Assembly: GCF_007197755.1 (NCBI RefSeq)
Contig: NZ_CP041636.1
Span: 4,066,001 to 4,130,000, forward strand
Source of the DNA: Ferrovibrio terrae
GTDB lineage: Bacteria; Pseudomonadota; Alphaproteobacteria; Ferrovibrionales; Ferrovibrionaceae
Reading direction: 5' to 3'
Length of the DNA: 64,000 bases
Shown: positions 6,957 through 64,000 of the stretch, one piece after another
Layout: every line of letters starts with the position of its first letter
Numbering within the stretch: the stretch's first letter is position 1
Notes under the pieces: model-generated
What the model saw: only the letters and a program-made list of their open reading frames with translations
Told to the model about the DNA's origin: nothing
Database searches by the model: none
Position numbers and translations under genes: made by a program

Positions 6957-7718
6957 ATGGCTTCGCTTCGCACACTTCTTCTCGCCGGTATCGCCTGCAC
7001 CACGCTGGCGGCGCCCGTTGTCTTCGCGCAGCCCGCCGCGGCGCAGACCCAGGTGGCCAGCGCCACTGCTGCCACGCGCTTCATCGGCGAACGCGAAATC
7101 AGCCGTCGCATCGCCGATATGGTGAAGCAGCGCAATGGTGGCCGGCCGGTGGAAATCAACTTCCACGGCATGGGCAACGAACTCGAGGTACCGGCCGGCA
7201 CGGCCGCTTTCCAGATCGACGAATTCAGCTACGACTCGCGCAGCGGCCGCTTCTACGGCACCGTCGCCAGCGCCACCGCCAGCATCAAGGTCAGCGGTCG
7301 CGCCCAGGTCGTCGAGGCGATCCCGGTGTTGAAGGGCCGCATTACCGCCGGCCAGGTGATCACGCGCAACGATGTCGAATGGCTGCAGGTGCCCGCCAAC
7401 CGTTACGGCGCCGGCTTTATCGACCGCTTCGACGATCTGATCGGCCAGACGCCGCGCCGGCCACTGGCCGCCGGCATGCCGATCCGCACGTCCGATATCG
7501 GCAAGCCCGAAGCCATTGCCAAGAACAGCCTGGTCACCATGGTGGCCCAGGCTCCCGGTCTCACCATCACGACCACCGGCCGCGCCATGGAATCGGGCAG
7601 CATCGGCGACGTGGTGCAGGTCCTGAACATGCAGAGCAAGCGGGCCATTCAGGCGACCGTGACCGGAATGAACCTGGTCCAGGTCATCACTGCCCCCAAC
7701 ATCATCGCGTCGAACTAA
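6957..7718 (+). CDS. flgA: Flagellar P-ring assembly chaperone FlgA
   Basis: A 253-residue periplasmic chaperone for assembly of the FlgI P ring. An N-terminal Sec signal peptide (about residues 1-30, ending in an Ala-rich stretch) precedes a middle region and a C-terminal SAF domain that carries GRITAGQVITRNDVEW and RRPLAAGMPIRTSDI, typical of FlgA. The family is variable in sequence, but the SAF motifs and the flgG-flgA-flgH order make the call firm. GGAG precedes the ATG. Confidence 0.93.
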   Translation: MASLRTLLLAGIACTTLAAPVVFAQPAAAQTQVASATAATRFIGEREISRRIADMVKQRNGGRPVEINFHGMGNELEVPAGTAAFQIDEFSYDSRSGRFYGTVASATASIKVSGRAQVVEAIPVLKGRITAGQVITRNDVEWLQVPANRYGAGFIDRFDDLIGQTPRRPLAAGMPIRTSDIGKPEAIAKNSLVTMVAQAPGLTITTTGRAMESGSIGDVVQVLNMQSKRAIQATVTGMNLVQVITAPNIIASN

Positions 7719-7742
7719 GAGCCGAGCGGAAGGATTATCATC

Positions 7743-8558
7743 ATGACTCGTTTTACCCATCCCACGCTCGCCGGCATGCTGCGAATTGCCGCCGCCGCCG
7801 GCCTTGCTGTCACTCTCGGCGCCTGCGGTAACCTTAACCGCCTCGGCGATATTGGCAGCGCGCCGGCCATGACCGGCATCGACAACCCGACCGAGAAACG
7901 CGACTACCGCCCGGTCAGCCTGCCGATGCCGGCGCCGGAAGTGGCACCGCGTCATGCCAATTCGCTGTGGCGTCCCGGTGCGCGCCAGTTCTTCAAGGAT
8001 CCGCGCGCCACCAGGGTCGGCGACATCCTGACAGTGAACATCAACATCCGGGAAAATGCGCAGCTGCAGAACAATACCACCACCTCGCGTGACAACAGCG
8101 AAGGCCAGGGCCTGCCGAACTTCCTCGGCTGGGAGTCGGCGCGCGACGGTGCCGGTGGCGTAATCACCCAGCCGGGTGCGCCCTCGGCGCTGAACAAGAT
8201 CTTCCGCAACGTCGATCCGGAAAACATGGTCACCATGAACTCGCAGTCGAGCGTGCAGGGCCAGGGCCAGGTGATCCGCCGTGAAGAAGTCACCCTGAAC
8301 GTCGCCGCGCTGGTGACGCAGGTGCTGCCGAACGGCAACCTCGTGGTGCAGGGCCGCCAGGAAGTGCGGGTGAACAACGAAGTGCGCGAACTGCTGATCC
8401 AGGGCATCGTGCGGCCGGAAGACATCACCGCGACCAACACGATCGTGCACACCCAGATGGCCGAAGCGCGCATCTCCTACGGCGGCCGCGGTCAGCTGAC
8501 CGATGTGCAGCAGGGCCGCTGGGGCCAGCAGGTCTACGACATCCTCTTCCCCTTCTAA
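7743..8558 (+). CDS. flgH: Flagellar L-ring lipoprotein FlgH
   Basis: A 271-residue outer-membrane lipoprotein that forms the L ring. The signal peptide ends in the lipobox LGAC with lipid-bearing Cys28. Later motifs include SLWRPGARQFF, VGDILTVNINI and GNLVVQGRQEV with VNNE, followed by the RPEDI region, all diagnostic of FlgH. It is the last gene of the flgFGAH operon; a strong intrinsic terminator follows at 8667-8701. Confidence 0.97.
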   Translation: MTRFTHPTLAGMLRIAAAAGLAVTLGACGNLNRLGDIGSAPAMTGIDNPTEKRDYRPVSLPMPAPEVAPRHANSLWRPGARQFFKDPRATRVGDILTVNINIRENAQLQNNTTTSRDNSEGQGLPNFLGWESARDGAGGVITQPGAPSALNKIFRNVDPENMVTMNSQSSVQGQGQVIRREEVTLNVAALVTQVLPNGNLVVQGRQEVRVNNEVRELLIQGIVRPEDITATNTIVHTQMAEARISYGGRGQLTDVQQGRWGQQVYDILFPF

Positions 8559-24841: not shown

Positions 24842-25543
24842 TCATATCCCCAGATACGAGGCCTTCAGCCCCGGATCGTTCAGCAACTCGGCTGCGAGGC
24901 CAGACATCGCAATCACGCCATGCTCCAGCACGAAGGCGCGATGCGCGATGGCCAGCGACTGCACGACATTCTGTTCGACCAGCAGGATCGACAGCCCGTC
25001 GCGGTTCAGCGACTGGATCAGGCTGAACATTTCCTCCACCAGCAACGGCGACAGGCCCAGTGAAGGTTCATCCAGCACCAAAAGCTCAGGCTGGGCCATC
25101 AGGCCGCGTCCGATGGCCAGCATCTGCTGCTCGCCGCCTGACAGCGTGCCGGCAAGCTGGGTCACACGCTCCTTCAGGCGGGGAAAGATTGTGTAGACCC
25201 GTTCGAGATTGAAACTGCGCTGCGCGCGGCCACGGCGGTAACTGCCAAGCTCGAGATTTTCCTGCACCGTCAGATTCGGAAAGACCCGACGGCCTTCCGG
25301 CACCTGGATCAGGCCAGCATCGACGATGGCATCCGTGCCCATGCCGGCGATATCGCGGCCCATGAAGCGGATCTGCCCGGCAAACGGTCGATAGATACCG
25401 GAGAGATTGTTGTTCAGTGTCGATTTGCCGACGCCATTGGCGCCGAGCAGCGCGACGATCTCGCCCTTGCCGACATCGAGGTCGATACCGCGCAGGACCG
25501 CCACTTCGCCATAGCCGGCGTGAAGTCCGCGCACTTCAAGCAT
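24842..25543 (-). CDS. Branched-chain-type ABC transporter ATPase LivF (importer 1)
   Basis: A 233-residue ABC ATPase of the LivF subfamily. Walker A is LLGANGVGKST, the signature LSGGEQQMLAIGRGL, Walker B LLVLDEPSLGLSP, and the His loop LLVEQN. It powers import with LivG, LivH and LivM encoded upstream. The start overlaps LivG by 8 bases and the stop overlaps the LeuC-like gene, so transport and metabolism are tied in one transcript. The substrate class (amino acid, amide or carboxylate) cannot be read from sequence. Confidence 0.93.
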   Translation of the reverse strand: MLEVRGLHAGYGEVAVLRGIDLDVGKGEIVALLGANGVGKSTLNNNLSGIYRPFAGQIRFMGRDIAGMGTDAIVDAGLIQVPEGRRVFPNLTVQENLELGSYRRGRAQRSFNLERVYTIFPRLKERVTQLAGTLSGGEQQMLAIGRGLMAQPELLVLDEPSLGLSPLLVEEMFSLIQSLNRDGLSILLVEQNVVQSLAIAHRAFVLEHGVIAMSGLAAELLNDPGLKASYLGI

Positions 25544-55892: not shown

Positions 55893-56896
55893 GGATTCAT
55901 CTCCACCCCGGCAGCCCGGTAAACACTTTCCATCAACTCCAGCGTCTCCAGATTATCGAGCCGGTCGGTTTCAAATGGAGCATCGTGATTGAGGCCGGTC
56001 ATGAAGGCGCGGATGACGGTGTCGAAACATTCCTGATAGCGCCCCAGCAGATCGACCTCCTCGACCGTCTCGTCTTCCCGGCCGACAAGATAAATACGGT
56101 TCAGCTCCATCACGATGGTGCCGAGTGTTCCGATCACTTCGAGGCGGTCACCATGCAGTTGCGGATAGCCCGGCGCACATAGGCTGCCGTCCGCTGTCGC
56201 GATCAGGCCGTCCTCGCCTTCCATCAGGATGGCCGCAGTGTCCTCCCCCGGCAGCCCCTCGGCCAGACGGCCCAGCCGTGCCGCGACCACGCGCAGCGGC
56301 CCCACCAGGCAGCGCAGCACGTCCAGATGATGGATCATGGTCTCGAAGACGAGATTGCGGTTGAACCACTTCAGATATGGCTGCCGCTCTATCAGGAAGG
56401 GCACAGTGCCCTCGCGCTCACAAAGACCCGAGCCACGGCAGGAAATCGCCGCATGGCGAATGCGGCCGATGCGACCCTCATCCACCCAGCGGCGGACTGT
56501 CATGTAATGCGGCCGGAAGCGATAATTCTCATGCACCATGAAGCGGACGCGGTCGCCGACGTCTGCAATCAGTGCCTTGGCCTCCGCGACTGTCGCACAC
56601 ATGGGCTTCTGGACCATGATATGAACGCCGGCATTGGCCGCGAGGCGTGCCATCGGCGCATGTGCATTCACCGATGCCGCAATATCCACGACATCGAAAC
56701 CGCCCTGCGCGAACATGTCGATGGCATTGCCATAGACGCGTGCCACATCGAACTCTTTGGCCCTGGCTTCAGCCCTGGAGCGATCGGTGTCGCAGACCGC
56801 GACCACCTCGGCGCCGGCGGCCTGCCAGGCGCGCAGATGATAAAGGCTGATCAGACCACAGCCGATGAGCGCGACACGAAGCTTACGCTCTGCCAT
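55889..56896 (-). CDS. Gfo/Idh/MocA-family oxidoreductase
   Basis: A 335-residue dehydrogenase. VALIGCGLISLYHLRAW is the Rossmann motif and MVQKPMCATVAEA carries the conserved Lys-Pro (EKP-like) motif; HENYRFRPHY lies in the substrate domain. These enzymes oxidise a secondary hydroxyl of a sugar or inositol. I start at 56896; 56917 is possible. It overlaps the cupin gene by 14 bases. Confidence 0.9.
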   Translation of the reverse strand: MAERKLRVALIGCGLISLYHLRAWQAAGAEVVAVCDTDRSRAEARAKEFDVARVYGNAIDMFAQGGFDVVDIAASVNAHAPMARLAANAGVHIMVQKPMCATVAEAKALIADVGDRVRFMVHENYRFRPHYMTVRRWVDEGRIGRIRHAAISCRGSGLCEREGTVPFLIERQPYLKWFNRNLVFETMIHHLDVLRCLVGPLRVVAARLGRLAEGLPGEDTAAILMEGEDGLIATADGSLCAPGYPQLHGDRLEVIGTLGTIVMELNRIYLVGREDETVEEVDLLGRYQECFDTVIRAFMTGLNHDAPFETDRLDNLETLELMESVYRAAGVEMNP

Positions 56897-57206
56897 GTCG
56901 GCCCCCAAATTTTCCATATCCGTAATACCAGACGCTGCCGGCATCCTTGCTGGTGCGCAGCGTGTGCCGGACGCCAGCCGGAATGCTTACCAACGCACCA
57001 GGCATACAGAGCCTGCGCTCACCTGCCACTTCGATCTCGACCTGGCCTTCCGCGACCACGACGAATTCATCTATGTCATGAATGAAATCGGCCCAAACCT
57101 GGCCCGGTGGATCACGATAGGTATCAAAGCTGAAACCCGGAAAGTCGGCCTGCACAGTCGCCGGTACAACTGGAACGTCATAGGCATTGAGACGGAACGC
57201 ACTCAT
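56883..57206 (-). CDS. Small cupin-fold protein
   Basis: A 107-residue single-cupin protein. FIHDIDEFVVVAEGQVEIEV and PGALVSIPAGVRHTL carry the two cupin motifs with plausible metal ligands His, Glu and His. It may be an isomerase or epimerase, or a ligand sensor. It overlaps the atypical ABC ATPase by 4 bases and the Gfo/Idh/MocA gene by 14. Confidence 0.85.
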   Translation of the reverse strand: MSAFRLNAYDVPVVPATVQADFPGFSFDTYRDPPGQVWADFIHDIDEFVVVAEGQVEIEVAGERRLCMPGALVSIPAGVRHTLRTSKDAGSVWYYGYGKFGGRHGRA

Positions 57207-57826
57207 GCCGCACGATCCGTCAGCAGGCCGCCCAGATAAGCCCGCGCCGGCTCGAAAGCCATCAGAGCATCAAAATCCGGAATGGGCGTCACAGCTCCCT
57301 TCTGGACGAAAATGAACTGTTCGCAGATCTCCTGCAAAATTTCGAGATGGAATCTCTCGTTCGGATGAACACAGAGAAACACCAGCCGGCCTTCTGAACG
57401 CAGGCGACGGAAAAAGTCGAGCATGAAGCCGATATAGCCATCCTGCGTGTTGAACTGCGGTTCGTCGAACAGATGCACCATCGGGTAGTCCGAGCCGGCC
57501 GGTTCCAGCAGGGCATTCGGTGTCCAGGACCGGAAATGCCGCACCTGGTAGGACTGGTGGTAATGAATCGCCAGCCTGTCGCGCTGGTCTGTGCGAACGC
57601 GATGTATATTGCGACCCATTACGCGCACTTCCCCCGAGGTGGGAGCATTCGAGCCGGTCACCAGTTCAAACAAAGTAGTCTTGCCCGACCCATTCGGCCC
57701 CATCATCCCGACCACCGATGGCTTCTCAATGGCGAGGTTGGCGGTCAGGCGGAAAGTCGGCGTGCGGTCGAACCGGCTTTTGCAGTAAATCTTTTCAAGG
57801 GATTGCACTTCCAGCATCGCCGTCAT
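57203..57826 (-). CDS. Atypical ABC ATPase lacking the LSGGQ signature
   Basis: A 207-residue ABC-type domain. Walker A GPNGSGKTT (43-51), a Q-loop-like Gln (91 or 94), Walker B VHLFDEP (117-123) and a His-loop residue His154 (CVHPNERF) are present. No signature motif is visible, and only about 25 residues separate the Q loop from Walker B, where normal domains have about 70-80; the helical subdomain seems deleted. The frame is intact and tightly packed (4-base overlap with cupin, 3-bp gap to LivF). Its role beside complete LivF and LivG is unknown. Confidence 0.8.
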   Translation of the reverse strand: MTAMLEVQSLEKIYCKSRFDRTPTFRLTANLAIEKPSVVGMMGPNGSGKTTLFELVTGSNAPTSGEVRVMGRNIHRVRTDQRDRLAIHYHQSYQVRHFRSWTPNALLEPAGSDYPMVHLFDEPQFNTQDGYIGFMLDFFRRLRSEGRLVFLCVHPNERFHLEILQEICEQFIFVQKGAVTPIPDFDALMAFEPARAYLGGLLTDRAA

Positions 57827-57829
57827 GGT

Positions 57830-58525
57830 TCACACTCCGATCAGGCGGCGGCGCAGCACCGGGTTGTCCAGCAGCTCCTGTGCGCGACCTTCGTATTCGA
57901 TCCGGCCGCGATCCATCACATAGGTACGGTCCGAGACTTCCAGCGCGGCCAGCGCATTCTGTTCGACCACCAGCACCGAGATGCCTTCGCTCTTCAGGCG
58001 TTTGATGGTGCGCATCACGCCCTGCACGATGTTGGGGGCCAGCCCCTGACTGGGCTCGTCGAACAGCACCAGGCCAGGCGAAGCCAACAAGGCGCGGGAA
58101 ATCGCCACCATCTGCATCTCGCCGCCCGACATGTTTTCGCATTCCCGGCGCATCAGATGTTCCAGCGCCGAAAAAATCCCGAACATCTCGTCCTGGCACC
58201 AGGACCGGAACCGCGTCTTGCGCGTGCCGAGCCGCAGGTTGCGCGCACCGGTCAGGGTCGGGAAAACACGACGGTCATCCGGCACCCAGGAAATCCCGAG
58301 TCGCGAAATGCGATGCGTCGGCATGCCTGTGATGTCGTGATTGTCGAAACTGATCTGACCTCGGCGCGGCGGCGACAGGCCAAGGATCGAGCGGATCGTC
58401 GTGGTCTTGCCCGCACCGTTCGGGCCCAGCAGCGCCACCACTTCGCCCGGACCGACCTCGAGCGACACGCCAAACAAGGCCTGGGTTTCGCCATAGAAGG
58501 TTTCAATTCCCGACAGATGCAGCAT
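57830..58525 (-). CDS. Branched-chain-type ABC transporter ATPase LivF (importer 3)
   Basis: A 231-residue LivF-type ATPase. Walker A LLGPNGAGKTT, signature MSGGEMQMVAISRALL, Walker B LVLFDEPSQGLAP, His loop LVVEQN. The MLHLSGIETFYG start at 58525 shares a base with the LivG stop (TGATG), and GGGGGAGG precedes it. It completes the third importer in the window. Confidence 0.93.
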   Translation of the reverse strand: MLHLSGIETFYGETQALFGVSLEVGPGEVVALLGPNGAGKTTTIRSILGLSPPRRGQISFDNHDITGMPTHRISRLGISWVPDDRRVFPTLTGARNLRLGTRKTRFRSWCQDEMFGIFSALEHLMRRECENMSGGEMQMVAISRALLASPGLVLFDEPSQGLAPNIVQGVMRTIKRLKSEGISVLVVEQNALAALEVSDRTYVMDRGRIEYEGRAQELLDNPVLRRRLIGV

Positions 58526-59271
58526 CAGGCGACCTCCCCCAGCGCTGACCGGGCGACCCATTTGTTGGCCTTGAGTGCAGCCGGCGTGCCTTCAGCGATC
58601 ACCTGCCCCCAATGGATGACCGAGATGCGGTCCGCCAGTTCAAACAGGAATCTCATATCGTGCTCGATCAAACAGATGGTGTAGCGCTTGCGGAGCTGCT
58701 GGATCAGCTGCGCCAGATTCTGCGTGGCCTTGGCGCCCAGGCCGGCGGTCGGTTCATCCAGGAACAGGATGCGCGGCTCAGCGGCCAGCGCCACGGCAAT
58801 CTCCAGCGCGCGGCGGTCCCCATAGCTCAGCTCTTTCGCCTTTTCCCAGGCACGGCCTGCCAATCCAACCTGCTCCAGAACCGCCAGGGCAGCCTTGATC
58901 AGCCCGGTGTCGCCAAAGGTCGTGCGGAACGGGCTGCTGCCAACGGCGCGGAAACCTGGCAGCGCCAACATCACATTCTCGATGACCACTGCATCGTCGA
59001 ACAGGTTCATCAGCTGAAACGAGCGCGATACGCCCTTGCGGGCAATGATATGCGGCTTCAGCCCGGTGATGTCCTGGCCATCGAACAGGATGCGGCCGGC
59101 ATCCGGCGCGTGATGTCCGGTCAGCACATGGAAACAAGTGGTCTTGCCTGCGCCGTTCGGCCCCATGATGCCGTGCACGGTGCCGGCCTCGATCGAGAGC
59201 GAGATGTTTTCCAGCACCACGCGGGCACCGAACCGCTTCTGGATATTCTGCGCCTGGAAGAGAACCATCAT
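58525..59271 (-). CDS. Branched-chain-type ABC transporter ATPase LivG (importer 3)
   Basis: A 248-residue LivG-type ATPase. Walker A MGPNGAGKTT, signature LSYGDRRALEIAVAL, Walker B ILFLDEPTAGLGA, His loop CLIEHDMRFLF. The MMVLFQ start at 59271 overlaps the LivM stop; the longer open frame is a shadow of LivM. Confidence 0.93.
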   Translation of the reverse strand: MMVLFQAQNIQKRFGARVVLENISLSIEAGTVHGIMGPNGAGKTTCFHVLTGHHAPDAGRILFDGQDITGLKPHIIARKGVSRSFQLMNLFDDAVVIENVMLALPGFRAVGSSPFRTTFGDTGLIKAALAVLEQVGLAGRAWEKAKELSYGDRRALEIAVALAAEPRILFLDEPTAGLGAKATQNLAQLIQQLRKRYTICLIEHDMRFLFELADRISVIHWGQVIAEGTPAALKANKWVARSALGEVA

Positions 59272-60284
59272 GCTTTCTCCGGCTTGGCGGCGGGCACCGG
59301 TGTCGGACCGCGCTGAACGGCGGTGTGAATCAGCCCGGCCAGGCCTTCCGGTCGCACCATCACCATGATGACGAAGATCAGGCCGTACCAGAGCAGCCAG
59401 GCTTCTGTCAGGCCGCCCAGCACGTCGCGCGCAATGAAATACAGTACGACACCCAGCACTGGCCCCCAGAAGCTGACAAGACCGCCACCCACCAGCACCA
59501 TCATCACGATGATGCCGGACTGGTGCAGGCTCATGACATCCGGATAGGCACTCTGCTGAGCCATGGCGAAAAGCCCCCCGGCCAATCCGGCTACCGCTGC
59601 TGAAATCGTGAAGGCCAGCCACTTCCAGCGCCAGACATCATAGCCAACGAAACGCGCCCGGGTTTCATTCTGCCGGATCGCCTGCAGGATGCGGCCCATC
59701 GGTGCATTCACGATGCGCCACATGAGAATCACCGCCACCACGGTGATCGCAGCAACGAACCAGTAGAAGGCCGCATTGTCGTTCAGGTCGACGCGCCACG
59801 GGCCGATCACCAGATCCGGGCGCGGGATATTCAGCAAGCCGTCTTCACCGCCGGTCAGCCAGTGCAGCTTCATCGCCGTGAACCAGAAGACCTGGCCGAA
59901 TCCGATGGTGAGCAGCGCGTAGTAGATGCCGCGGCGGTGCGACAGGAAGGCGCCGACAATCGCCCCCGCCAGGGTCGCGGCCAGGATCGCGGCCAGCAAC
60001 CCGCCCCACAGGCTGACCGCGACGCTATGCTGGAACAGGCCGAAGCCATAGGCGCCGATGCCGAGATAGGCGCCATGACCGAAGGAATGCAGCCCGGTAT
60101 AGCCGAACAGCAGGTTGAAGCCCATGGCGAAGAGAATCCAGATGGCAATCTCGACACCGAGATACTGGTAGAGGCCGACATGCCCCAGCCAGAGCGGCGC
60201 GGTCGCCAGGACCGCCACGAACACTCCCATCGACGGGGTGAGAGGCACTCCGCCGCGAGCCGGAATATCGGATAGCGTCATCAT
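59268..60284 (-). CDS. Branched-chain-type ABC permease LivM (importer 3)
   Basis: A 338-residue polytopic protein with LivM motifs FGYTGLHSFGHGAYLGIGAY, LSHRRGIYYALLTIGFGQVF and the coupling loop RQNETRARFVGYD. It starts 3 bp after LivH and overlaps LivG by 4 bases. Confidence 0.92.
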   Translation of the reverse strand: MMTLSDIPARGGVPLTPSMGVFVAVLATAPLWLGHVGLYQYLGVEIAIWILFAMGFNLLFGYTGLHSFGHGAYLGIGAYGFGLFQHSVAVSLWGGLLAAILAATLAGAIVGAFLSHRRGIYYALLTIGFGQVFWFTAMKLHWLTGGEDGLLNIPRPDLVIGPWRVDLNDNAAFYWFVAAITVVAVILMWRIVNAPMGRILQAIRQNETRARFVGYDVWRWKWLAFTISAAVAGLAGGLFAMAQQSAYPDVMSLHQSGIIVMMVLVGGGLVSFWGPVLGVVLYFIARDVLGGLTEAWLLWYGLIFVIMVMVRPEGLAGLIHTAVQRGPTPVPAAKPEKA

Positions 60285-60287
60285 CGT

Positions 60288-61208
60288 TCAGTTCTCCAGC
60301 GCACTTCTGCGTCCCAGCAGGCCACGCGCGCGGAAACCGACGATCGCGATCAACAGGATATACATCGACATCAGCGACCAGGCCGGCGCATAGGCGCCGG
60401 TGATGCCGGTGGCCAGTCCGACCAGAATGGCGGCTGCCACCGCGCCCCAGAAACTGCCGACGCCGCCGATGACGATGATGAGGAAGGCCGGGATCACGAC
60501 GTCGATGCCGAGATGCGGACGCAATCCCCAGATCGGCGCCATCACCATGCCGGCCATGCCGGCCAGCGCCGAGCCGAAACCGAAGACGATCAGGCGCAGG
60601 CGCGCGAGGTCGTAGCCCAACGCCCGCACCATCTCGCTGTCATGCGCGCCGGCCTTGATGATCGCACCATAGGGCGTGCGTTCGAGAAACAGCCAGACCA
60701 GCAGGATCGCCACGATGGCGAAGCCGGCGGCGTAGAACTTGTAGGTCGAGAAGATCAGCCCGCCCATCAGGAAGGCGCCGCTGATCATCTGCGGTACCGG
60801 CATGCTCTGCTCGCCTGTGCCCCAGCCGAGCCGGATCACTTCCTCGATCACGAGGGCCGCACCAAACGTCAGCAGCAAACCATAGAGCGGCGCCTTGCCG
60901 TAGGTCGGCCGCAGGCAGAGTTCGAGCAGCATGCCGGCAAGTCCGGCCAGCACCGGCCCAAGGGCCAGACCGATGAAATACCGGCTGGCCATCGGCAGCT
61001 CCAGCCACCACGTCCCGAATGGTGTGCCGGCAAACCAGCCGGCGCCAATCGTTGAGAGCGCCAGATACGCACCGAGCGTGAAGAGCGAGCCGTGCGCCAG
61101 GTTGATCACCTCCATCACGCCGACAATCAGGGTGAAACCCAGGGCGATCAGGGCGAACAGCAGGCCCAACGTAAGGCCGTTGACGAGATGCGGAATAAGA
61201 CTGGTCAT
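60288..61208 (-). CDS. Branched-chain-type ABC permease LivH (importer 3)
   Basis: A 306-residue polytopic protein: LVNGLTLGLLFALIALGFTL, EVINLAHGSLFTLGAY and the coupling region HDSEMVRALGYDLARLR. It is separated from the binding-protein gene by 70 bp with a hairpin at 61245-61268. Confidence 0.93.
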   Translation of the reverse strand: MTSLIPHLVNGLTLGLLFALIALGFTLIVGVMEVINLAHGSLFTLGAYLALSTIGAGWFAGTPFGTWWLELPMASRYFIGLALGPVLAGLAGMLLELCLRPTYGKAPLYGLLLTFGAALVIEEVIRLGWGTGEQSMPVPQMISGAFLMGGLIFSTYKFYAAGFAIVAILLVWLFLERTPYGAIIKAGAHDSEMVRALGYDLARLRLIVFGFGSALAGMAGMVMAPIWGLRPHLGIDVVIPAFLIIVIGGVGSFWGAVAAAILVGLATGITGAYAPAWSLMSMYILLIAIVGFRARGLLGRRSALEN

Positions 61209-61237: not shown

Positions 61238-61268
61238 AAAAAGCGCGGGCGGCGTTGCCACCGCCCGC
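61238..61268 (-). terminator. Hairpin and T run between binding protein and LivH (importer 3)
   Basis: GCGGGCGG (61245-61252) and CCGCCCGC (61261-61268) form a perfect 8-bp stem with an 8-base loop. On the coding strand GC and TTTTT follow, so it resembles an intrinsic terminator that must be partly read through. Confidence 0.7.
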
Positions 61269-61278
61269 AGTTTCAGGG

Positions 61279-62568
61279 TTACGCGTCAAACGTTGGCGTG
61301 GACTCGTAGGATTCCAGCTTGCAGGCCCCCTTCGCGTCCGAGTCCATCACTTCCTGCGGCGACGAGTTGCCGAGGACCTTGAACATGTCGTCCTTGTCCT
61401 TGGTGCCGATATTGGCCGTGCAGAGGTAGATGCTCTGCTGCATCTGGTGTGTGTTGGGATCCATCCAGGCATCGTGATGTTGCATGCGGTCGCGCGCCGA
61501 TGTCTTGAGGTTTTCCAGCTCCTTGATCACTTTGATATTATTGGTGGAGCCGGCGCGCTCGATGGCGGCGAACAGTTCACGGGTTGCCCAGTAGCCGTTG
61601 TAGAACACGTTGCCGGGCACGCGGATAAAGGTATCCGGGAACATCGCCTGATAACGCTTCACGAAATCGGACACGCCCGGCAGATCGAGATTGTAGTACC
61701 AGGTGGTGCCGAATACGCCGAACAGGTTGTCGAGCGGCAGGCCATAGACGTCCGGCCAGTCCTGCTGGTTGTTGATCCAGGCCGGCTTGTCGCCCATGCC
61801 AAGCTGCGCGATCTGCTGGCGCATGGCCTTCTGATCGTCGCCGCCGATCGCCGCTGCAACCGCGCCCGGCTTGAGTTGCTGGATCTTGAGCAGTTGCGAG
61901 GAGAAATCACGCGTGCCCTGCGGCACCAGGATTTCCTCCACCATCTCGCCGCCGAACTGCTTCAGCAGTGCTTTGGTCGCCGCTGCGGTGGAATGCCCCC
62001 AGACATAATCATTGGTCAGCAACACCCATTTCTTGCCGAATTTCTCGATGGAGGCCTGCACGGCGGCCTTGGCGAAGTTGCTGCCGTTGGCGTCGAAGAC
62101 GAACTTGACGCGATGGCAGTTCTGTCCCGCCTCCGAAGGCGCGCTCGAATTGGTGTTCAGATAGATGACGCCGTATTTCTGCGCCACCTGGCTGATCGCG
62201 TTGGCAACGCCGGAATGGATCGCGCCGATCAGGAAGCCGCAATTCTCGCGCGTGATCATGCGCTCGGCCACGCGGCTGCCGGTGGCGGGCGTGGTCTCGG
62301 TATCGAGATGGAAGGTTTCGATCTTGCGGCCCAGCACGCCGCCTTTGGCGTTTGCTTCGGCGATGGCCATCTGCATGCCGCGGCGATCTTCGGCGCCAGA
62401 GTTGGCGTACTGACCGCTGGCATCCGACGTGATGCCGAGCCTGATCGGCTTGGCGGCACCCTGGGCATAAACACGGGTGTGCTTCCACGGTCCCATGAAA
62501 GCCAGGCCGCTTGTGGCAGCGGCTGCCGTGGTCAGTAGACGACGACGGCTAATCTTGGACTGAGCCAT
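61279..62568 (-). CDS. ABC transporter periplasmic substrate-binding protein, Tat signal (importer 3)
   Basis: A 429-residue type I binding protein. ISRRRLLTTAAAATSG is a twin-arginine signal, cleaved near VYAQG. The mature start KPIRLGITSDASGQYANSG resembles urea, amide or Leu/Ile/Val receptors. The first gene of the 11-gene operon, it is divergent from a RpiR-type regulator across 179 bp with three palindromes. Confidence 0.92.
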   Translation of the reverse strand: MAQSKISRRRLLTTAAAATSGLAFMGPWKHTRVYAQGAAKPIRLGITSDASGQYANSGAEDRRGMQMAIAEANAKGGVLGRKIETFHLDTETTPATGSRVAERMITRENCGFLIGAIHSGVANAISQVAQKYGVIYLNTNSSAPSEAGQNCHRVKFVFDANGSNFAKAAVQASIEKFGKKWVLLTNDYVWGHSTAAATKALLKQFGGEMVEEILVPQGTRDFSSQLLKIQQLKPGAVAAAIGGDDQKAMRQQIAQLGMGDKPAWINNQQDWPDVYGLPLDNLFGVFGTTWYYNLDLPGVSDFVKRYQAMFPDTFIRVPGNVFYNGYWATRELFAAIERAGSTNNIKVIKELENLKTSARDRMQHHDAWMDPNTHQMQQSIYLCTANIGTKDKDDMFKVLGNSSPQEVMDSDAKGACKLESYESTPTFDA

Positions 62569-62747: not shown

Positions 62748-63623
62748 ATGAGTGACACGCCCTCCCAGAAATCTGGCCAGATTTCGACCGAAATCACCCG
62801 GCCGCCGGTCGACGCCGAGACCTTTGATGGCCTCCGGCAGCGAATCCGGGACCGCTTTTCGACCCTCAGCCCGCATCTCCAGCGGATCGCGAGGTCCTCG
62901 CTGGAGGAACCAAACAGTTTTGCCCTGAACACCACGGCCAAGATTGCCGCCGACCTCGATATCCAGCCGTCCACGCTGATCAGGTTTGCCAAGGAATTCG
63001 GCTATTCAGGCTTTTCCGACTTGCAGCGGGTCTTCCGGCAGCGCCTGATCGAAGGCGAACCGACCGTGCGCGAGCGCGTCTATTCGGAAGAAACCGCGCG
63101 GCCGGAGCCGCCGAATGTGCGGGAACTGCTCCAGACCTGCGTCGCGGCGCATGTGGCGGCGCTGAACGACCTGGTGAAGACCTGCGATACCGACAGCCTC
63201 GCCAGGGCGGTCGAAATGCTGCGCGGTGCGCGGCATGTCTATATCGCCGGTCTGCGCCGCTCCCGCCCGATCGCAGCTTACCTTGCTTATGCCCTGACGC
63301 GCTCGGAGCGTGCCAGCAGCCTGCTCGACTTTGCCGGCGGCATGGCCGGCCCGCAGATAGCCACGATCGGTCCGGACGACGTTCTGGTCGCAATCGCCTT
63401 CCCGCCGTATTCGCGACCTGTCGTCGATATCGTGCTCGATGCCTATGTCAGCGGCCGCAAGGTGCTGGCCATCACCGATGGCCCGGGCAGCCCGCTGGCC
63501 AGCAACTCGCAGCTACAGCTTTACGTCGATGCTGGCGCGGCGTCGGCCTTCCAGCCCATCTCGGGCGCCATCGGTCTGGTGCAGACGGTCATTACGGCGT
63601 TGAACTGGAGCAAGGCGGGTTAG
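62748..63623 (+). CDS. MurR/RpiR-family transcriptional regulator (HTH + SIS)
   Basis: A 291-residue regulator. An N-terminal HTH_6 domain (about residues 25-105, with TTAKIAADLDIQPSTLIRFAKEFG, shown in part) and a C-terminal SIS sugar-phosphate-type domain (about 125-270, with GARHVYIAGLRRSRPIA) are clear. It is divergent from the 11-gene operon and probably controls it through the palindromes at 62647-62702. SIS ligands are usually phosphorylated sugars or related acids, consistent with a sugar-acid pathway. Confidence 0.93.
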   Translation: MSDTPSQKSGQISTEITRPPVDAETFDGLRQRIRDRFSTLSPHLQRIARSSLEEPNSFALNTTAKIAADLDIQPSTLIRFAKEFGYSGFSDLQRVFRQRLIEGEPTVRERVYSEETARPEPPNVRELLQTCVAAHVAALNDLVKTCDTDSLARAVEMLRGARHVYIAGLRRSRPIAAYLAYALTRSERASSLLDFAGGMAGPQIATIGPDDVLVAIAFPPYSRPVVDIVLDAYVSGRKVLAITDGPGSPLASNSQLQLYVDAGAASAFQPISGAIGLVQTVITALNWSKAG

Positions 63624-63670
63624 GAAAGTCCCAGACAGGGACTGATGCACCGTTTGGTGCGGATGAAATG

Positions 63671-63709
63671 AAAAGGCCGGCCGCCACTTAAGTGACTGAC
63701 CGGCCTTTT
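63671..63709. terminator. Bidirectional intrinsic terminator between rpiR-type gene and tRNA
   Basis: AAAAGGCCGG (63671-63680) and CCGGCCTTTT (63700-63709) form a perfect 10-bp stem; the loop holds an inner palindrome CACTTAAGTG. A and T flanks let it serve both the plus-strand regulator gene and the minus-strand tRNA. Confidence 0.85.
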
Positions 63710-63716
63710 AAAAGAA

Positions 63717-63793
63717 TGGTGCGCTCGAAGAGATTCGAACTCCTGACCCCCAGATTCGTAGTCTGGTGCTCTATCCAGCTGAGCTACGAGCGC
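63717..63793 (-). tRNA. tRNA-Arg (anticodon ACG)
   Basis: A 77-base cloverleaf on the minus strand. Acceptor arm GCGCTCG (63793-63787 read on plus as CGAGCGC) pairs with CGAGCGC, followed by encoded ACCA. The anticodon arm is CCAGA, loop CTACGAA, TCTGG, giving ACG, which is read as ICG after deamination. The T arm holds GTTCGAATC. A terminator follows at 63671-63709. Confidence 0.97.
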
Positions 63794-64000
63794 GCACGTC
63801 GCGGTACCGCGACGGGGGCGGAACCTACTCAATTCACCGGGACCGCGCAAGGCCCAAGCCCGGAATACTGCCCTGCCGTGCAAGCCTCGGATTCTACAGG
63901 CAGATGACGCTTGCGGGCAGGTATGCCGACCCCTAGAATGTCACGGTCTGCAGAAGGTCCGCCACGGCAGTTCCCGTCAGGCTGACTCATGCAGCGGGGG
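63794..64000. other. Intergenic end of window, no supported feature
   Basis: No open reading frame with a credible start, signal or family similarity is visible. A short in-frame stretch near 63933-63985 on the minus strand could be the end of a gene lying past the window, but it is broken by a stop and cannot be supported. Confidence 0.5.

Follow-up and report, generated by a model that had tools for sequence, protein, structure and literature searches.

The textbook ABC transporter possesses two nucleotide-binding domains (NBDs), each of which contributes a signature motif that completes the ATP site of its partner and a helical subdomain that grips the permease. The NBD groove for the coupling helix of the permease involves this helical subdomain. 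For the NBD LptB of Escherichia coli, the portions of the published account drawn on here describe a C-terminal motif, Y234-L235-G236, in which Y234 touches G36 and P37 of Walker A within the monomer; exchange of Y234 for alanine abolishes function, and the C-terminal domain is located at the dimer interface (PMC6703430). In the same portions, the role of the Y234 helix is termed essential but unknown, the next loop is described as acting in ATPase dimerisation and turnover, and partial conservation of the motif in LivF and LivG is noted (PMC6703430). For PhnL on PhnK, both ATPases are stated to be needed in the sections of the source used, and its authors suggest that PhnL may steady the D-loop of PhnK (PMC9947105). 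No account of an extra ATPase in liv systems, whether a third one or one that lacks the signature, was found among the matches listed from open-licence PMC titles and the first parts of abstracts.

The locus described here is located in a window of 64,000 nucleotides of Ferrovibrio terrae (contig NZ_CP041636.1, positions 4,066,001 to 4,130,000), and positions are given within this window. On its minus strand lies an operon that begins with a substrate-binding protein (SBP; Peripla_BP_6, 61279..62568), followed by the permeases LivH (60288..61208) and LivM (59268..60284), both named from operon order and ORF reading without a family library, and by LivG (58525..59271) and LivF (57830..58525), which were identified as full NBDs by family match and motifs. 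Directly downstream of LivF is a third ATP-binding protein, here called P3 (57203..57826), and after it come a small cupin (family match, 56883..57206), a Gfo/Idh/MocA oxidoreductase, an SDR, an aldehyde dehydrogenase and an HpaI/GarL-like aldolase, the last three being named from scores that fall short of the curated cut-offs in the NCBIfam models listed. An RpiR-type regulator (HTH_6 and SIS family matches, 62748..63623) is encoded divergently on the plus strand. Overlaps of 4 nt (LivM-LivG), 1 nt (LivG-LivF) and 4 nt (P3-cupin) and a gap of 3 nt (LivF-P3) separate the genes, so that the tight packing and intact frame of P3 reported in the initial annotation, and its remark that the operon already holds complete LivF and LivG, agree with what was found.

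Other features of this region were recorded as well. A strong hairpin of 11 pairs (9 of them G-C) with a loop of 4, followed by a T-rich stretch, lies between SBP and LivH (61244-61269, minus strand); as a candidate only, it may allow more of the binding protein to be produced than of the other proteins. Over the entire scan, 7 terminator-like sites were counted against 6.1 in shuffles, i.e. no more than expected from these. A tRNA-Arg (acg; 63717-63793, minus strand) adjoins the RpiR gene, and the ORF at 63620-63883 is probably this tRNA read as protein. The tRNA-Ala (cgc) placed by ARAGORN at 56413-56492 (minus strand), inside the ORF of the Gfo/Idh/MocA oxidoreductase, is probably a false call.

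P3 is a putative ABC-type ATPase of 207 aa, read from ATG to TGA on the minus strand without an internal stop. Walker A (residues 43-51, GPNGSGKTT; 57674..57700), the Q-loop glutamine Q91 in HYHQSYQVR (57554..57556), Walker B with the catalytic glutamate and the D-loop (residues 118-129, HLFDEPQFNTQD; 57440..57475) and the His-loop residue H154 (57365..57367) were all identified on that strand, with Walker B reading HLFD121 and E122 following as the catalytic residue. Q91 rather than Q94 was assigned as the Q-loop residue from an alignment made by eye. Y14, which we take from the alignment and general knowledge of these motifs to be the A-loop tyrosine, D129, presumably the D-loop aspartate, and K49, T50, Q91, D121, E122 and H154, assigned on the same footing, are each present in 85 of 85 rows (81 distinct, 4 being duplicates). 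The four motifs listed in the initial annotation (Walker A, Q loop, Walker B and His loop) are thus present and invariant. H88, H90, H118 and C152 are likewise found in 85/85 rows, and a C-terminal YLG motif (residues 197-199, 57230..57238, minus strand) in 79/79.

What sets P3 apart lies between these motifs. At the place of the helical subdomain and signature it has only a short linker (residues 92-117; 57476..57553, minus strand), and the spacing from Q91 to D121 is 30 residues, in comparison with 73 in LivF and 86 in LivG of the same operon; the figure of about 25 residues between Q loop and Walker B given previously was slightly low. The distance of 30 is identical in 79/79 aligned P3 sequences. 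A signature-like motif between the Q-loop and Walker B was found in none of the 79 homologues, in line with the earlier report that no LSGGQ-like motif exists. PSAG[RQK] strings, which occur in 11/79 homologues, were considered as a signature and rejected on account of their position before the Q-loop (string index 61-66). Profile comparison showed no counterpart in P3 of the helical subdomain and signature of LivF, and the Pfam model ABC_tran covers only residues 29-91 of P3 (profile positions 4-67 of 137), whereas it covers LivF and LivG nearly end to end.

Structure prediction of P3 alone, which the initial annotation had proposed as a check, was made with AlphaFold2 on the family alignment and gave a pLDDT of 90.8 and a pTM of 0.87; confidence is lowest directly behind the Q-loop, in residues 91-100 (mean 60). 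In this model the alpha-helical subdomain is absent, the short stretch 91-130 having no helix of at least 4 residues. Comparison with solved NBDs gave Z scores of 17.8-19.6 over 164-187 residues (50 matches listed), the highest being for MetN (6cvl_D; Z 19.6, 180 residues), and Foldseek returned E-values down to 3.4e-12. The predicted fold of P3 is that of the catalytic core of an NBD without the helical subdomain.

Relatives of P3 were counted at 195 loci in a scan of one genome per species (84,980 species), and the best 80 of these were used for locus work. According to the record titles, the hosts include Alpha-, Beta- and Gammaproteobacteria, Desulfosarcina, other delta-type MAGs and one Candidatus Binatia MAG. 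Identity to the P3 of the window is 57-89% in these best 80, and 78 other loci show the same architecture at 56-89% identity. The 79-row alignment leaves out L048 (the same protein as L047), L026 (contig end), L081 (the window itself), L082, L083 and L085 (duplicates of L001, L002 and L066) and L084, a distinct sequence from the same genus. It contains 61 invariant columns, among them Q124-F125-N126 and G130-Y131-I132-G133-F134-M135-L136. Five comparisons gave dN/dS values of 0.045, 0.084, 0.068, 0.062 and 0.112, which are rough (dS 0.94-2.19); in 4 of the 5 the ratio for P3 was the lowest among the operon genes compared, as far as ratios with dS near or above 1 allow. P3 is a conserved family under purifying selection with an invariant ATP site.

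These data bear on the suspicion that the short form arose recently. Homologues that occupy this place and have a complete helical subdomain, which the initial annotation had named as a refuting result that would mean a recent deletion, number 0 of 79, and a recent deletion, frameshift, pseudogene or sequencing error is excluded by the same architecture in 78 other loci together with the low dN/dS. That P3 is what is left of a degenerating third NBD, or that it arose by a recent deletion, might be thought from its want of two defining parts of an ABC NBD, but is scarcely credible against 195 relatives, a spacing fixed in 79/79, dN/dS of 0.045-0.112 and 61 invariant columns.

The family is sharply bounded: 6 of 397 genomes of the phylum match at E ≤ 1.8e-96, the next best match being at 6.4e-15. 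Within the genus, P3 was found in 3/9 other genomes, some of the nine being incomplete, and no P3 match was found in plasmids at 1e-20. In a tree of 185 columns with midpoint root, 15 P3 rows form one group (support 0.999), and no sister group of P3 within the ABC ATPases was resolved in it. P3 is easily overlooked because family libraries see only a generic ABC_tran protein. At E ≤ 0.001, all 79 P3 sequences match only ABC_tran in Pfam, 66 of them AAA_23 too. The best NCBIfam score of the window's P3 among the best 25 of 151 matches listed is 48.9 bits (TIGR04406, cut-off 240); it scores 40.9 of the 362 bits of NF008449 (LivG) and 44.2 of the 285.8 bits of UrtE, and the LivF model is absent from these best 25 of 151. 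Sequence searches of solved structures gave generic NBD matches, nearly all of those listed being to the Walker A half only, and PHROGs and PADLOC gave generic P-loop matches. Among the curated families, structure matches and literature listings checked, none described P3 specifically, and no experiment on it was found there.

The loci of P3 were compared for their neighbouring genes. Relatives were counted anywhere in the locus at an identity of at least 45% (at least 30% for RpiR and cupin), several loci being truncated; script-made gene calls, which recovered P3 in 67/80 loci, entered no count. A LivF relative is found in 79/80 loci, LivG and LivM in 78/80 each, SBP in 73/80 and LivH in 67/80; the sole locus without a LivF relative (L026) is ended by a contig end. 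In some Burkholderiales, SBP and, where present, LivH are encoded on the other strand. RpiR (65/80), SDR (55/80) and cupin (24/80) relatives were also counted. Of the liv and cupin neighbours foreseen in the initial annotation, liv stands (LivF 79/80) and cupin does not, and the cupin was rejected as a general partner of P3.

Linkage to the transporter was also observed in genome samples. In a draw of 386 genomes, P3 is present in 9, and an SBP at an identity of at least 60% in exactly the same 9, the next SBP being at 40%; in a draw of 397 genomes, both are present in the same 6. The two draws share the genome of the window, giving 14 distinct P3-positive genomes, and the searches scored at most 4 to 8 candidates per genome. 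Among 23 chosen genomes, a set that overlaps the draws, SBP was found in 16/16 P3-positive and 0/7 P3-negative genomes, and the 16 P3-linked LivF score 274-507 bits as opposed to 212 or less for other LivF. Between P3 and the liv genes or SBP, protein distances are correlated at r 0.63-0.70, roughly as they are between the NBD genes and SBP; the value for LivH with LivM is higher (0.89). In the sampled genomes, P3 is strictly linked to one group of SBP-LivHMGF systems.

The SBP relative of 40% identity (L175, in genome G060, without P3) was examined as a counter-example and rejected, the ORF list of its 4.2 kb stretch holding no Liv-type ATPase or P3. There it stands beside a HAMP-PAS-HisKA sensor kinase, a gene with a CheZ domain and a BPD_transp_1 permease, and has possibly been recruited for signalling.

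The initial annotation had also offered P3 as an ATP-binding sensor unrelated to transport, a proposal now disfavoured as P3 follows the transporter and not the catabolic genes (cupin 24/80). Another possibility is that P3 arose from an ABC NBD but now works in solution, as an ATP-dependent enzyme or a signalling ATPase, and touches neither LivF nor LivG; it might, for example, phosphorylate the imported compound and so provide a signal for the RpiR regulator to sense. The SIS domain of RpiR-type proteins binds sugar phosphates in known cases, and the presence of such a regulator in 65/80 loci would suit this proposal. So would the sugar-type enzymes that adjoin P3 in the window, L045, L061 and L078; in the few loci examined, the neighbours include SDRs, aldolases, a transketolase and a transaldolase-family protein, which look sugar-like and give no single substrate. 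The extreme invariance around the ATP site, which extends beyond the ATPase motifs (H88, H90, H118, C152 and D129, 85/85; also Q124-F125-N126 and G130 to L136 in the 79-row alignment), would fit a catalytic pocket as much as an interface, and adenylate kinase activity has been reported for the ABC exporter MsbA in the part of the source consulted (PMC5192220). However, the downstream enzymes vary by lineage while P3 stays with the transporter, and the catalytic glutamate of Walker B and the His-loop of ATP hydrolysis are retained. We regard a soluble enzyme of this kind as rather unlikely, yet as the main rival of the subunit reading given below.

Within these operons P3 follows LivF directly. 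The LivF stop and the P3 start are -11 to +26 nt apart in the 78 loci with both genes placed, on an automatic choice of starts in which the value of -11 rests on a doubtful one. In L061, about 465 nt without an evident gene (7524-7988) separate LivF and P3, the only gap of more than 26 nt. The LivF next to P3 is interrupted in its N-terminal part in L044, where LivG and LivM were not found, and the LivF frame next to P3 in L050 holds stops; assembly error or real decay may lie behind either case. Natural LivF-P3 fusions were rejected: 15 loci, of which one is a duplicate, hold stop-to-stop frames longer than 300 aa, and by eye these were judged to be out-of-frame LivF before P3. An alignment of the LivF-P3 read-through contained 27 read-through rows with 18/52 LivF-only and 18/50 P3-only rows. 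A model of the read-through had good local confidence and a pTM of 0.56, thus leaving the relative placement of the halves unfixed. The LivF half of the read-through model of L025 gave a Z of 33.1 to 1ji0, and structural matches were to the LivF half with a few weak extensions.

Such close packing would also suit P3 as an assembly factor or chaperone for LivF and LivG or the membrane complex, using ATP binding only as a switch and being absent from the working pump. LivF directly adjacent at very short gaps fits co-translational assembly, and P3 has neither the coupling groove nor the helical subdomain that a motor would carry. Other liv systems nevertheless lack P3: in the 9 P3-positive genomes of the 386 draw there is one P3 per genome, as against 3 to 11 LivF matches at 1e-50 in P3-positive genomes (10 in the window's own genome). 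The catalytic residues of P3 are, moreover, fully retained, and an assembly factor is considered improbable.

The LivF and LivG that accompany P3 were compared with ordinary members of their families. Comparison sets consisted of near-full-length tblastn matches with identical proteins merged, and 'P3-linked' denotes an identity to the window's protein of at least 57% (LivF) or at least 54% (LivG), such matches lying in 112 loci, every one of them in a P3-positive genome. In trees with 88 P3-linked rows each, P3-linked LivF form a group without ordinary members (support 0.87), and LivG do likewise at low support (0.29). An ordinary LivF of the window itself (24845-25543, minus strand, the position being converted from genome coordinates) is 43% identical to the P3-linked LivF. 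All 87 distinct P3-linked LivF possess the signature [LM]SGGE and the Walker B DEP, and 86 the Walker A lysine; their His-loop place reads EQN in 83, EQH in 2 and EHN in 2, giving glutamine in 85/87. Glutamine at this place is also the consensus of ordinary LivF, and P3 and LivG carry histidine there. All 87 P3-linked LivG have the signature [LM][SPA]YG, DEP and EH. Judged by their motifs, the P3-linked LivF and LivG look as able as ordinary ones, and P3 does not look like a stand-in for a broken motor: because LivF and LivG keep their own motifs, there is nothing obvious left for P3 to replace, a point against its being a third subunit.

The C-terminal motif is distributed differently. Among ordinary proteins, the tyrosine of YLG is present in 31/31 LivG and in 33/44 LivF (the others having 4 Phe, 3 His, 3 Leu and 1 Trp). 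It is present in none of the 86 readable P3-linked LivF (of 87), which have Leu or Met instead, and in 0/87 P3-linked LivG, which have Asn, Ala or others. P3 itself keeps YLG in 79/79. As a clue, this pattern suggests that the motors of P3 systems gave up a brace that their relatives kept, while the third protein kept it. It is a clue rather than proof, because the losses fall in two groups and amount to about two evolutionary events, which may be unrelated to P3. Further positions are invariant in these groups only, among them Q160 beside Walker B in LivF and G179 in the D-loop region in LivG; these group-specific positions could reflect the permeases.

Taken with the linkage, these features led us to a reading, held at even confidence, in which a distinct Liv-type (HAAT) importer has P3 as a dedicated ATP-binding subunit, its third, whose part is to regulate or assist the pair of LivF and LivG. 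P3 would be an ABC NBD fold whose helical subdomain was lost together with the signature and the coupling-helix groove. Its retained ATPase residues suggest that it binds and probably hydrolyses ATP. With no signature, P3 cannot complete the site of a partner, and with no helical subdomain it cannot hold the coupling helix in the usual way, so that the usual drive of the permease would be out of its reach. Contact with the LivF-LivG pair could take two forms. The signature of LivF or LivG may complete the ATP site of P3 while the motor pair is open, or P3 may be stacked onto the pair at its C-terminal face by analogy with PhnL on PhnK. Under either mode of contact P3 would be a regulator of the LivF-LivG cycle that responds to ATP or cell state by adjusting the closure of the dimer, its turnover or how the pump is assembled. 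The regulatory subunit pairing with LivG or LivF that the initial annotation had put forward is thus partly supported: the strict liv linkage, the retained catalytic residues and the changes at the C-termini of both motors fit it, with physical pairing as its inferred part.

A more specific version appears doubtful, if possible. According to it, a whole group of Liv-type importers has three kinds of ATP-binding subunit; P3 would use the signature of LivF or LivG while the motor pair is open and, as an ATP-driven clutch, time the closure of the two, and the tyrosine bracing Walker A would have been given up by both motors and kept only in the clutch. If P3 is indeed a third subunit, the ABC fold would prove usable within an importer as a regulator or helper. 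In the two draws, each genome that contains P3 or this importer group contains both, and P3 offers a compact test case for the roles of the helical subdomain and the YLG tail.

Of the described proteins, the NBDs LivF and LivG of HAAT importers share with P3 the core fold, the ATP-site motifs, the YLG of their ordinary members and the operon itself (hhalign of P3 with LivF: probability 98.5, 26% identity). Unlike them, P3 has no helical subdomain and no signature, its D-loop region is altered (QFNTQD), it is a third gene beside both, and it has histidine in the His-loop where P3-linked LivF have glutamine (85/87). P3 is not filed as LivF or LivG on these sequence grounds, because two defining NBD features are missing and the curated LivG score is failed. 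In degenerate-site NBDs, the helical subdomain is kept, and such a domain forms half of the motor pair instead of being added to it as a third. Their asymmetric use of ATP sites in heterodimeric ABC transporters, as set out in the portion of the source consulted, resembles that proposed for P3 (PMC7756269). LptB resembles P3 in its YLG C-terminal motif and aligns with the model (6mbn_A; Z 18.8, 171 residues, rmsd 2.4), but is a full NBD of 241 residues, and P3 reaches 48.9 bits against the TIGR04406 cut-off of 240. PhnK and PhnL of C-P lyase provide a likeness in arrangement, with an ABC ATPase of a second kind in the operon; in the available sections of the report, the activity of PhnL is needed and it sits on the C-terminal region of the PhnK dimer (PMC9947105). 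PhnL differs in belonging to a non-transporter, in having no conserved C-terminal domain and in its added beta hairpin, as those sections describe it (PMC9947105), whereas P3 is distinguished by the absence of the helical subdomain.
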